A DNA stretch of 64,000 nt from Dysidea avara (taxonomy: Eukaryota; Porifera; Demospongiae; Dictyoceratida; Dysideidae): assembly GCF_963678975.1 (NCBI RefSeq), contig NC_089282.1, positions 186,001 through 250,000 of the forward strand. The letters are read 5' to 3'. This document shows positions 3,547 to 44,358 of this stretch, piece by piece. The notes under the pieces were generated by a model that worked only from the letters and a program-made list of their open reading frames with translations, ran no database searches and was not told the DNA's origin. The position numbers and the translations under genes are program-made. How positions within the stretch are numbered: the stretch's first letter is position 1; each line of letters begins with the position of its first letter.

Positions 3547-4196
3547 GGTTAACCTGAAGGTTAGCCGGCTGAGATGTCATCCCATTACACTGCACATGAC
3601 AGGTCATGACTCACTGCTTGGTGGTGATTGTGAGACTCTTAATTTGACATATAGGTCACTACTATGAAATAACTATGCTAAATTGTTGTCGTGTGATACT
3701 TTAACTGGTTGTGGTGAGTGAGCTTTAAATTTGATGATGGGAGGAATACCAAGGCTAGCAGCCATGTCATACTTCAGACATTCTAATGGTCTGAAGAACA
3801 GCCAGCAAACCAAAGGGGTTATAGTTGGTTCAGAAACATGGTGCTGAAACATTACCTGTGCCTCCAGGGATATTCAGTTACCATGGAGATTATTAATTAG
3901 TGTATACATTGTTGTACTACTTATCAGGATACCATAGCAACCATGAGTTAAGTGACCAAACTGTTGTAAAATTATTAGCACCAATTAGCACTTGTATGGC
4001 TTTCTATTGATACCTTGTTTGTGAGGTAATGAAGTGCTGGCTGTGCATCTCCTCAGGCATAGTTTTTGCTAATCAAACACCAAAACTACAGGAGCATTAT
4101 TTCAATGTGTTTCATCACACTGTTTTGACAGGTGGTCCATAAGAGCAAGGTGTAGCAGGGGCTCAGAGGGATGATATGATTTGCAGTGAACAGCAC
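3547..4196. other. No gene recognised
   Basis: This is unique-looking AT-rich sequence between repeat R1 and the inverted-repeat transposon. No exon with protein-like translation flanked by splice signals was seen on either strand. Confidence 0.4.
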
Positions 4197-4204
4197 ATTC
4201 AAAA

Positions 4205-4985
4205 CTAGTCTGGCTCTGCCGAACCTTTTACGCCGCTCTCTTTTTGATTAGTTGGGCGGCGCTCGCTGTAAAAGGGTCTAGTCACAACCGCTAAACTTGT
4301 GTATGCTACCACTATAGTGTCAGCACCAATCAAATCACAGCATTTGTAATTAAACTGAACATTCGACGTATAATTAGTGGAACCATGGATACTATTTCCC
4401 GGAATGTATTGTATCTACGGTAACTGTGTATGGTTTTACTTAAAAGCTGTTGCTAGCTCGTTATGATGACTTCAATGCCTATATCTGGGACACACTTAAG
4501 GGAGAACATGTTGGTATACTCATTGGCCACGACAATCGTGACAGCTGCTTGGGTGTGATCCAGGACGGGTTTACTGTTGCTAGTGGGTCTTGGGATAAAA
4601 TTTGGAATTAAAAAAAATTAACAGCAACAACACCAAAGAAAAAGACTTGTATCTGTGTCACAATTTTTGACTTCTTTGCACACTATTATATTATTGTACT
4701 CAAGATATTGTGGCTCTATACATCATTTGTGTAAGATAAGAAATTAACATATGTATTGAAAAAGAGGATGGAGTGTGCTGGAAGCGAGGTTTGATGCCAT
4801 AATTCTATGGCATTGCCATGACTAAACCAGATGTTAATTATTTGGAGCTGCACAAGTTTAGTATGTGGTTGTGACCAAACTCCTTTTATAGCAAGCGCCG
4901 CCCAGCAAGTCAAACTCTTTTATAGCAAGCGCCGCCCAGCAAGTCAAAAAGCGAGTGGTGTAAAAGGGTCAGCAGCGCCAGACTA
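4205..4985. mobile_element. Non-autonomous TIR transposon carrying a G-beta exon fragment
   Basis: About 72 bp at the left end (from TAGTCTGGCTCTGCC) is repeated in inverse orientation at the right end (to GCGCCAGACTA) with roughly 85% identity. ATTCAAAA occurs immediately outside both ends (4197-4204 and 4986-4993), an 8-bp target-site duplication with at most a one-base ambiguity. An 8-bp duplication and TAG-type ends fit a hAT-like superfamily. The inner part of the right arm is itself tandemly duplicated: CTTTTATAGCAAGCGCCGCC occurs twice, about 36 bp apart. No transposase is present. The interior contains a degenerate fragment of a G-protein beta subunit gene, so this resembles a gene-capturing (Pack-type) element. 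Confidence 0.75.
4444..4611 (+). pseudogene. G-protein beta subunit C-terminal fragment (pseudogene)
   Basis: The frame from 4444 to the TAA at 4609-4611 reads as the last two WD40 blades of a heterotrimeric G-protein beta subunit. The landmarks YDDFN, WDTLKGE, GHDNR, CLGV and the terminal IWN are all in the canonical order. Compared with the family's C-terminus, the SWDSFLKIWN-type ending has lost about three residues (SWDKIWN), and an in-frame TAA lies just upstream of the block. So it is not a working gene, although the C-terminal frame is otherwise intact over about 55 codons. It lies wholly inside the inverted-repeat transposon at 4205-4985, which suggests capture by the element. The parent gene is not in this window. 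Confidence 0.75.
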
Positions 4986-4999
4986 ATTCAAAACATATT

Positions 5000-5569: not shown

Positions 5570-6130
5570 GTTTTTTGTGTCTGTGCATGTGTGTAATGTG
5601 TTTGTGTAATGTGTGTGTGTGTAATGTGTGTGTGTGTAATGTGTTTGTGTAATGTGTGTGTGTGTAATGTGTTTGTGTAATGTGTGTGTGTGTAATGTGT
5701 TTGTGTAATGTGTGTGTGTGTAATGTGTTTGTGTAATGTGTGTGTGTGTGTAATGTGTTTGTGTAATGTGTGTGTGTGTAATGTGTTTGTGTAATGTGCA
5801 TGTGTGTAATGTGTTTGTGTAATGTGTGTGTGTGTAATGTTTTTGTGTAATGTGTTTGTGTAATGTGCATGTGTGTAATGTGTTTGTGTAATGTGTGTGT
5901 GTGTAATGTGTTTGTGTAATGTGTTTGTGTAATGTGTGTGTGTGTAATGTGTTTGTGTAATGTGTGTGTGTGTAATGTGTTTGTGTAATGTGTGTGTGTG
6001 TAATGTGTTTGTGTAATGTGTTTGTGTAATGTGTGTGTGTGTAATGTGTTTGTGTAATGTGGGTGTGTGTAATGTGTGTGTGTGTGTAATGTGTTTGTGT
6101 AATGTGGGTGTGTGTAATGTGTGTGTGTGT

Positions 6131-6161
<31 letters not shown>

Positions 6162-6447
6162 TGTGTTTGTGTAATGTGGGTGTGTGTAATGTGTGTGTGT
6201 GTGTGTGTGTAATGTGTTTGTGTAATGTGGGTGTGTGTAATGTGTGTGTGTGTGTAATGTCTTTGTATAATGTGGGTGTGTGTAATGTGTGTGTGTGTAA
6301 TGTGTGTGTGTAGTGTGTGTGTGTGTAATGTGTTTGTGTAATATATGTGTGTAGTGTGTGTGTGTGTAATGTGTTTGTGTAATGTGTATGTGTAATGTGT
6401 ATGTGTAATGTGTCTGTGTAATGTGTGTGTGTAGTGTGTGTGTGTGT

Positions 6448-6491
<44 letters not shown>

Positions 6492-6607
6492 TGTGTGTGT
6501 GTGTGTAGTGTGTGTAGTGTGTGTGTGTAGTGTGTGTAGTGTGTGTGTGTGTGTGTAGTGTGTGTGTAGTGTGTGTGTGTGTAGTGTGTGTGTGTAATGT
6601 GTGTGTG

Positions 6608-6673
<66 letters not shown>

Positions 6674-6915
6674 TGTGTGTGTAGTGTGTGTGTGTGTAGT
6701 GTGTGTGTGTAGTGTGTGTGTAGTGTGTGTGTGTGTAGTGTGTGTGTAGTGTGTGTGTGTAGTGTGTGTGTAGTGTGTGTGTGTGTAGTGTGTGTAGTGT
6801 GTGTGTGTAGTGTGTGTAGTGTGAGTGTAGTGTGTGTGGTGTGTGTGTGTGTAGTGTGTGTGTGTAGTGTGTGTGTGTAGTGTGTGTGTGTAATGTGTTT
6901 GTGTCTCTGACATGG
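5570..6915. repeat. 1.35-kb TG-rich satellite with 14- and 28-bp units
   Basis: The left two thirds is a higher-order array in which TGTGTTTGTGTAATG alternates with TGTGTGTGTGTAATG. The right third shifts to TGTAGTGTGTG-type units and pure (TG)n blocks, including a run near 6612-6671. Long open frames on the minus strand reading Thr-His-Tyr repeats are a by-product of the period and are not genes. The array lies between two gene-poor regions and could be very length-variable. Confidence 0.95.
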
Positions 6916-21400: not shown

Positions 21401-24400
21401 TTAAGGCCAGACATTGTCAGCAATATCAACCAGCTATTGCATAATGACAATCACTATGTGAAAGTGGCTAAGGACTTATTTGACCAACATGATGTCCCAA
21501 CAAACATCAGGGTTGAATGAAACAAAGAGACCTACAGATGAGCACCCCAGGAGGTACAATAGTCCCATGTGTGATGAGGTGGGTGTGTTGATGCCTAATA
21601 AAAATGCAAACAACAAGGACATAGTGTTGCATTATAGGGATGGTGGTTTGCATCATATTTTGGAATTGCACAGAAGCTATGATCCATTGCAGTACCCACT
21701 GATTTTCTCTCATGGTACTGATGGGTGGCATATCAATCTTAAACTAGCTAACAATAAAAAATTGACAGCCCTGGTATATTACCACTACCACATCATGGTA
21801 AGGCAAAATGTGTCTGTGTTGCTTAGGGCCAAGCGACTGTTCCAACAGTTCTTGGTAGATGCATACTGCAAAATTGAAACAGAACGGTTGCAATTTCTTA
21901 GGCGTGAGCAAAAAGCATTTCGTGCTGACTGCTATCAGGATCTCCGAGATGCAATTGTTGATGGAGACGGGGACCCTAACAATGTAGGCCGTAGAATTAT
22001 CCTGCCATCAACATTTACAGGTGGGCCACGTTATATGCATGAATGTCAACAGGATGCCATGACTTATGTTAGGAAATATGGCCACCCCGATTTGATTATT
22101 ACAATGACATGCAATCCCAACTGGCCAGAAATTAAAAACAATCTGTTGCCAGGTCAAAAGCCCCAGGATCGTCCAGAATTAGTGGCTCGAGTCTTTAGGC
22201 TCAAACTTAAGAAAATGCTAGAGATGTTAAAAGCAGAAATGATTTTTGGAAAACCACAGGCTTCGCTTTACTCAGTGGAATGGCAAAAGCGTGGCTTACC
22301 ACATGCTCACATCTTGGTGTGGTTGATTCCAGAACACAAGATACACCAGATAAAATAGATGATATTGTTTGTGCTGAAATACCTGATGCCCTGAACTGCA
22401 CCAGATTGCGATGTCCAACATGGTACATGGACCCTGTGGGAGCATCAATCCATTGTCTCCTTGCATGGAACATGGCCAGTGCAGTAAGAAGTACCCCAAA
22501 CCATTGATATCTGAGACCCAACTAGGTACTGATAGCTACCCATTGTACAGGAGGAGAAGCCCTGAAGATGGTGGCCAGGTGAGTACCATCATCATTAATG
22601 TGAGAAGCTCTCAGGTAACTGAGGAAATTGACAACAGGTGGATAGTGCCTTACAACAAGTTTTTGTTGCGAGCCTTAAACTGCCACTGCAATGTTGAACT
22701 GCACGTCCATCAGTTCCATCAAGTATGTACTGAAGTACATACACAAGGGCTGTGATCAGGCAACCTTTGCACTACATTCAGACCAGGTGGACGAGATCTC
22801 TGAGTATCAGAATGCTCGATACATCAGCAGCAATGAAGCAGCCTGGAGGATACTGGAGTTCCCGATCCATGAGAGATTTCCTCCTGTTCAACAACTAGCT
22901 GTGCACTTGGAGAATGGTCAGCGAGTTTATTTCACTGAGGACACTGCAAGGGATCAAGCTTCAGGGGCCCCTCCGAAGACTACCTTCACAGAATTCTTTG
23001 CTTTATGTCAGGTAGACAACTTTGCCAAGACACTATTGTATGTTGATGTTCCTGAATATTACACGTGGAGCAACAAGTCTTGAAGAGGAGGAAACAAGGA
23101 ACACAGGTTGCTGGGTACCCTGGTGTTAAGCAAGCTCAAGCCTTGGGTAGGGTCTACACCATCAGCCCACGTCAAGGAGAGTGCTTTTATCTCCACTTAC
23201 TTTTACATAATGTTAACGGTCCTCAGTCATTTGCTGCTCGGAGGACTGTTAATGGTGATCTGTGCAGTTCCTTCCGTGAGACATGCCTCAAGTTGGGACT
23301 GCTCGAAGATGACAATCAGTACCACTTAGCTATGGAGGAGGCAAGTGTGATAAGAAAACCGTCTCTTTAGCTTTGGCATCTTGACACTTCAGCACTCAAA
23401 GATTTGAATTCACATGCAGGCATCATGTGTAAAAACCTGTTTGTTTGTGGTTTTGACAGGAATGTAGCTCAAGCTTTCCTCTACACCAACATCTTCAACA
23501 AATTGTAGAGAACGAAAGGAAGCACGTAGCGGTTTGTAACAACAAACTTGGAGTTGCCAGATGATGAGCGCTTAATTTCGTTAAAGTCCCATATCGATAC
23601 GTACTTTGGTTGTTGAGTTACGGGCATTGGAGAGACAGACAGACAGACAGATAGACAGCTTTATATATATAGATTTGCAAGCTATTAAATTTTGTTATCA
23701 CCAGATAGAGGAAGCTTATGCATGTGCAATGGCGGCCAAACAAAATTGATACCGCCTTCAGAACAAGAGTTATAATAAATAATGAAATTTTAATCTAGAT
23801 TACTTTCATAGGCCACTGTACATTTATTTTACGCATAATATTTTACGGAAAATTAATATGTATGGGTTAATTTGACATGAGTTTAGATATGTTACTCAGT
23901 GGATTACTAACGAGATTAGTAACTTCATTACTCATAGTAATAATATTATGTAATATTAGATTCATTACAGTAACTTCATTACTTAGGTAACGCGTTACAT
24001 TTGTAAGATTACGTCACAGACACAAAATGGCCGCTGTAGTGTGGGGGGAAATACGTAAAATTTGTATGGGCAACTATGGGAAGAAAATTTTCGAATGGCA
24101 ATATCTCAGCTAAGAAGGAAGATATCAAACTCTAACTAGCAGTATGACTATAAGACATTACGATAAGTGTGTAAAAGTGATTTTCGGTTGAGTTTCAAAA
24201 CAACGCTAGATTCCTATTCTTTCAGCTAATTTATAACCATACCTGCTGGTTAGAGCTCGATATCTTCCATCTTAGCTGAGATATTGCCATTCAAAAATTT
24301 TCTTCACATAGTCGCCCATACAAATTTTACGAACATTACCACACTACAGCGGCCATTTTATGTCTGTGACGTAATTTCAGATAAGGCTCAATGACAACCA

Positions 24401-34287: not shown

Positions 34288-44358
<10,071 letters not shown>

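Follow-up and report, generated by a model that had tools for sequence, protein, structure and literature searches.

Host-gene fragments lying between the terminal inverted repeats (TIRs) of transposons, the Pack-TIRs, have been surveyed in animals by Tan et al. (2021; PMC8277862), who report 370 cases in 100 animal genomes, mostly single-copy, 56.9% of them within 15 kb of their source and 67.6% with some microhomology. The survey required an internal sequence of 100-5000 bp and a unique parent with an identity of at least 90% and a length ratio of 80-120%, the parent having no transposon flank within 100 bp and the copy not being a retroduplicate; the resulting set was filtered against retroduplicates. 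According to the same study, Mutator-like elements (MULEs) are rare among the animals studied, no Pack-MULE was identified in reference genomes, and the Ssk-FB4 elements of Drosophila melanogaster populations are classed as MULEs and as Pack-MULEs. In C. elegans, host protein-coding sequence lies inside the TIR element Turmoil-1 through transduplication, as its description in PMC2572040 has it.

The locus considered here lies in a 64,000-nucleotide stretch of the Dysidea avara genome, the whole of which was analysed and is called the window (contig C11, positions 186001-250000), and consists of a TIR element that holds part of a G-protein beta (G-beta) gene. As in animal Pack-TIRs, usually single-copy, a gene fragment sits between the ends of one TIR element and has one unambiguous parent elsewhere; unlike them, it may have originated from RNA, its source is unlinked, and it is accompanied by neither transposon loss nor clear microhomology. 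Ssk-FB4 (PMC8277862) is likewise a host gene in a TIR element with 9-10-bp duplications, but there, by the published summary, transposition is evident from several copies whose duplications differ, whereas here the fragment has one copy. Turmoil-1 differs in another way, since two sequences are placed by its description in the terminal repeats themselves (PMC2572040), whereas the single G-beta fragment of this copy sits between its element's repeats.

Processed pseudogenes and 5'-truncated retrocopies resemble the insert in comprising a gene's 3' end, with a likely poly(A) end, seemingly neutral decay and a short flanking repeat. The insert is nevertheless not filed as a processed pseudogene, because a proper poly(A) tail is absent, the flanking repeat is weak and the copied stretch has no intron. 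An earlier note on this DNA, made from the letters alone, had read the locus as a transposon that captured a gene exon. A piece of a gene that lies between two TIRs can mimic such capture; in this case the junctions, the copy number and the parent gene speak for a single insertion event in a transposon already resident.

The TIR family and its copy in the window

The element spans positions 4206-4985, as delimited by its terminal repeats and the flanking duplication (Table 1), starting with TAGTCTGGC and closing with GCCAGACTA. Its inverted repeats, put at about 72 bp in the earlier note, are real: the arms at 4203-4277 and 4914-4988 measure 75 nt and are 83% complementary, and their similarity reaches ~4301 and ~4851 once the 34-bp tandem duplication of the right arm is allowed for. 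The target duplication is likewise present and exact, its two copies being identical, and is 9 bp long, so that the eight bases counted previously were one short. Over consensus positions 1-240 the left transposon part is identical in 215 of 240 alignment columns, 4 of the columns being gaps. The ~62-bp deletion of the right part (consensus 262-323) falls between 4780 and 4781, downstream of the insertion point and separate from it, and neither this deletion nor the tandem duplication is present in the 17 aligned family copies.

Table 1. Coordinates of the transposon, the G-beta insert and their flanks (window positions)
Feature	Position	Strand	Remarks
Target site duplication, left copy, ATTCAAAAC	4197..4205	.	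9 bp
Target site duplication, right copy, ATTCAAAAC	4986..4994	.	9 bp, identical to the left copy
Left terminal inverted repeat, TAGTCTGGC..., ~96 bp	4206..4301	+	Conserved in the TIR family
Right terminal inverted repeat	4851..4985	-	With tandem duplication 4883-4914 / 4917-4948
Left transposon part	4206..4446	+	Family consensus 1-245
Right transposon part	4756..4985	+	~62-bp deletion and 34-bp tandem duplication
Short degenerate repeat, left side, TTAAAAG	4440..4446	+	Consensus TTGGAAG, 239-245
Short degenerate repeat, right side, TTGAAAAAG	4756..4764	+	Transposon resumes, consensus 239
G-beta insert, 309 bp of last exon and 3' UTR	4447..4755	+	Parent C13:7630187 onward
54 remaining G-beta codons	4447..4608	+	Lacks 9 bp (SFL) between 4596 and 4597
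Natural G-beta stop codon TAA	4609..4611	+	
G-beta 3' UTR, 144 nt	4612..4755	+	2 bp and 14 bp of the parent missing

A search of the 550.8-Mb assembly (108 contigs) with the whole element gave at least 154 matches (40 of 88 candidates scored); among the matches listed, other elements cover query positions 1-237 and ~574-781, and one place covers the middle. The pattern of the outer end, with up to 3 mismatches allowed, occurs 197 times genome-wide (95 on one strand and 102 on the other, both ends of the window copy included), against 0 matches for its reversed control. The further TIR copies that the earlier note proposed to seek thus exist, and they lack the insert. A family consensus of 503 bp was derived from 17 aligned copies, 19 having been fetched and two (L020 and L025) dropped for large inserts. 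Among 22 copies with both ends read, the 9-bp duplication is exact in 17, agrees at 8/9 positions in 3, at 7/9 in 1 and at 0/9 in 1, and four longer members, counted by eye, comprise 1 exact case, 2 at 8/9 and 1 at 6/9. Given its TIRs, its constant 9-bp duplications and its many short dispersed copies, the family is a genuine multi-copy non-autonomous TIR element (MITE) of ~503 bp. The window contains no other convincing TIR copy. Three TIR matches in the viral_contigs set, where similarity ends after ~20 bp, were judged to be chance. No earlier report of the element was found in the open-access literature searched.

Target duplications of 9 bp and long TIRs are MULE traits, and because the family combines 9-bp duplications with TIRs of ~100 bp it is probably Mutator-like, resembling MULE MITEs also in having no transposase. 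FB4 was assigned to MULE by the same argument, as stated by Tan et al. (PMC8277862). MULE transposase domains are abundant in the genome, with at least 150 matches (150 scored of 410 candidates), all of those listed lying above the curated cut-off, in contrast to the rarity of MULEs among the animals of Tan et al. Unlike MULE MITEs, however, the family has no autonomous element with its TIRs among 10 MULE loci of ~3.3 kb, in which the family TIRs had no match, and TAGTCTGGG is all that four related loci share. Loci L068 (6.5 kb), L069 (2.9 kb), L070 (1.1 kb) and L071 (0.76 kb) were considered as the autonomous partner and set aside, as they look like elements with nested inserts; the largest of them has no open frame above 120 codons.

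The G-beta fragment and its parent gene

The DNA match between insert and parent comprises 282 of 318 aligned columns (BLAST, E 4e-117), an identity of 89% with gap columns counted and of 92% (282/306) without them. Seen against the Pack-TIR definition cited above, the element encloses 309 bp between its ends, corresponding to 334 bp of a unique parent. BLAST alone ends at window position 4752, or position 4005 of the parent locus L012, and the last 16 parental bases can be aligned by assuming a 14-bp deletion in the copy, beyond which 14 of 15 bases agree with the parent by eye. The G-beta C-terminus recognised in the earlier note is real: when translated, its 55 residues align with the C-terminal end of G-beta proteins of solved structure, at E ~4e-23 to 2e-21 for ordinary single-copy chains, the top match (E 1.7e-42) being a fused chain that contains the stretch twice. 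It also matches Pfam PF25391 (WD40_Gbeta) at E 3.4e-21, a score below the family's curated cut-off because only the domain end is present.

Searching the genome with window positions 4441-4780 returned one other place, C13:7630187-7630504 (2 of 2 candidates scored, counts being lower bounds), and the G-beta stretch is absent from 46 loci of other family copies, some of them overlapping. Within the window, tblastn with the parent protein yielded the fragment as its sole significant match, followed by one at E 1.5; the remnant of a decayed G-beta gene around the element, which was sought as an explanation without transposon capture, is accordingly absent there. The tblastn alignment extends leftward to 4393 across a TAA, and this extension, which aligns to the transposon consensus, was not counted as G-beta.

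The parent lies on contig C13, the insert on C11. The gene is intact, with 11 exons, ten introns that each begin with GT and end in AG, and 341 residues plus a stop (exon borders were picked by eye and checked by translation). A protein search found this parent at 83% identity, besides one distant paralogue at 54%. Aligned with the intact gene, as the earlier note had advised, the copied stretch starts inside the last exon (246 bp), 72 nt from its beginning (L012 3688 in exon 3616-3861), passes the stop and ends at L012 4021, 12 nt after ATTAAA (4004-4009). The description as a C-terminal exon was therefore right as to the source, the sequence coming from the last exon, and too generous as to extent, since only part of that exon is present, together with 3' UTR. 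Directly beyond the copied stretch the parent continues with the GT-rich GTTCCCTTTTTGTTGTTTGT, plausibly a downstream element for cleavage, and a second signal, AATAAA, overlaps the parent stop codon at L012 3860. With the poly(A) site placed by the ATTAAA hexamer, the right end of the insert would probably coincide with the end of the parent mRNA; the second signal counts against this placement. In the 7 kb around the parent the TIR family has no significant match (best E 5.2).

A full-length intronless G-beta-like gene with a 340-aa open frame lies around C11:2799488 (L055 1498-2520, minus strand). It matches PF25391 at E 8.9e-97, is 54% identical to the fragment and may have arisen as an old retrogene within the G-beta family.

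The insert keeps the natural stop, as had been observed, whereas the long open frame ascribed to it was overstated. The frame has 55 codons and no ATG, and an in-frame TAA stands directly before it, so that being open does not mark it as functional; three residues (SFL) have moreover been lost. Between copy and parent there are 9 changes per 124.3 nonsynonymous sites and 6 per 37.7 synonymous sites, a dN/dS of 0.43, where a value of ~0.5 is expected if just one of two copies is constrained. By this measure the changes in the insert look neutral, with only the parent constrained, and no product would be expected from the fragment.

Junctions, age and origin of the insert

At the left junction the transposon runs to ...TTACTTAAAAG (consensus ...TTACTTGGAAG, position 245) and G-beta follows from CTGTTGC; at the right junction G-beta ends in ...AACATATGTA and is succeeded by TTGAAAAAGAGGATGGAGTGTGCTG, which is the transposon from consensus 239 on (TTGGAAGAGGACGGAGTACGCTG). 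The transposon is thus uninterrupted across the insert, without sequence loss at the insertion point. Automatic alignments suggest instead that the insert replaced ~47 bp of transposon; this was rejected, positions 4762-4780 matching family members L021 and L024 at 18 of 19 bases by eye. A TTRRAAG-like motif flanks the insert on both sides. Pairs of positions drawn at random match equally well 327 times in 6000, and A-rich pairs 193 times in 1500; by itself the flanking repeat is weak. Neither junction has clear microhomology by eye, and as to a poly(A) tail at the insert end, there is only AAAAA at 4759-4763, 3 nt past the homology.

Against the family consensus the copy in the window has 49 differences in 427 sites, and the 17 other copies diverge from that consensus by 2.4-8.2%, a range biased to low values by the choice of good matches. 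Changes of the window copy that are absent from every other copy number 24 in 427 sites. Set against these private changes, the 22 differences in 305 sites between insert and parent give p 0.44 (this count used 7/143 UTR differences, alignment by eye giving 8/144), and the three ways of counting insert against transposon age gave p 0.44, 0.52 and 0.87. The ages of insert and transposon are statistically indistinguishable.

We favour, with moderate confidence, a one-off insertion of the parent's 3' end, as a 5'-truncated mRNA copy, into an old TIR copy already resident at the site. A non-autonomous copy of ~503 bp would have settled there first; the LINE machinery of the host would then have produced a 5'-truncated copy of the G-beta mRNA and integrated it at transposon position ~239-245, after which the insert would have decayed neutrally. 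An mRNA copy would explain why the insert ends at a likely poly(A) site, why the transposon is uninterrupted, why the source is unlinked and why a single copy was found. The 5' truncation within the last exon also supports an RNA route, as do the TTRRAAG-like sequence on both sides, the dN/dS of 0.43 and the retroelement-like insert with an A-rich tail in the sister element L070. The transposon family, the intact parent, the search without a second copy, the uninterrupted transposon and the neutral pattern of changes are shown directly; the RNA intermediate, the involvement of LINEs and the order of events are what we infer from this pattern. The missing clear poly(A) tail and the short, degenerate flanking repeat count against an RNA route, and as all of the insert comes from a single exon of an 11-exon gene, intron loss cannot show. 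In RpS4e, the one ribosomal family tested, no extra copy was seen, which gives no sign of retrocopies being common in this genome, and the age test, which would allow insert and transposon copy to be equally old, counts against the proposed order. There is no sign that the insert moved with the transposon.

The same composite could have been formed from DNA, if a break in the resident transposon was filled, or repaired by template switching, from genomic G-beta sequence without any RNA step. The locus would then be a single-copy Pack-TIR, and this is a realistic possibility, though short of an even chance. Gap filling is the process to which mostly single-copy animal Pack-TIRs are ascribed by Tan et al. 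(PMC8277862); it is in keeping with an insert that has no poly(A) tail and stays within one exon, and a staggered break would also yield a short duplication. Yet no transposon sequence was lost at the insertion point, and no clear microhomology was recognised by eye, in contrast to the 67.6% of cases cited above. The source lies on another contig, in contrast to the 56.9% within 15 kb, and the coincidence between the insert's right end and the likely mRNA end also speaks against gap filling. Much less probable is a true capture, in which the fragment was acquired elsewhere and then transposed to its present site, creating the 9-bp duplication. An intact duplication does flank the composite, and the divergences of insert and transposon agree statistically, but no second copy turned up in the genome search or in the 46 family loci, some overlapping. 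The fragment does lie in a genuine TIR element, as the earlier note held; its pick-up and movement by that element, however, find no backing in the single copy, the uninterrupted transposon and an end where the mRNA would be expected to stop, features that suit insertion into a resident element at least as well. Chance similarity, assembly error or contamination can be put aside as a practically negligible explanation, with the DNA match given above, a protein match at E ~2e-21 and a parent in the same assembly; chance similarity in particular is ruled out by the DNA and protein matches.

That a Mutator-like MITE captured a gene fragment at the DNA level, making the locus an animal Pack-MULE, is rather unlikely. 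If proven, DNA capture would provide an animal MULE-type example for a class known mainly from plants, and even then not the first in animals, given Ssk-FB4 of fly populations. One dead copy changes no general picture, and the fragment is ordinary genome debris.

Other inserts in the family and further features of the window

Several family members contain other sequences. One copy holds an insert of ~1.05 kb (L032 470-1519) whose junctions repeat 8 bp of the transposon, and another a 255-bp insert (L025 382-636) with 3 bp repeated; both are presumably nested elements. A very short member, L070 102-1186 (C9:3479660-3480950), contains a retroelement-like insert of ~0.94 kb with an A-rich tail, flanked by TTTTGATT on both sides. 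Its frame, which had no match in Pfam, we take to be reverse-transcriptase-like and to represent the end of a LINE. From this retroelement-like insert, such insertions into the TIR family seem to happen.

At two places on C7, ~70 kb apart and inverted relative to each other, the terminal 150 bp of the family are joined to exon-like sequence (L033 125-451 and L034 508-837). This sequence has a cysteine-containing frame, is 96-98% alike at the two places, has a 76% partial match on C13 and gave no Pfam match under E 0.02. A second captured gene was considered here and rejected in favour of local duplication, the likelier account for two places on one contig with only a partial match on C13.

The window itself has a 1.3-kb TG-rich minisatellite of TGTGTAATGTGTT-like units at 5576-6904, ~600 bp beyond the element's right end, and a tandem array at 35769-36497, in which a 28-bp unit is repeated 26 times with 90% matches and overlaps a minus-strand open frame of 184 codons. 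A Helitron remnant occupies 21462-22358 (Helitron_like_N, E 5.1e-59), and the genes of the window include a KH/Tudor protein, a reprolysin and a CARD protein.
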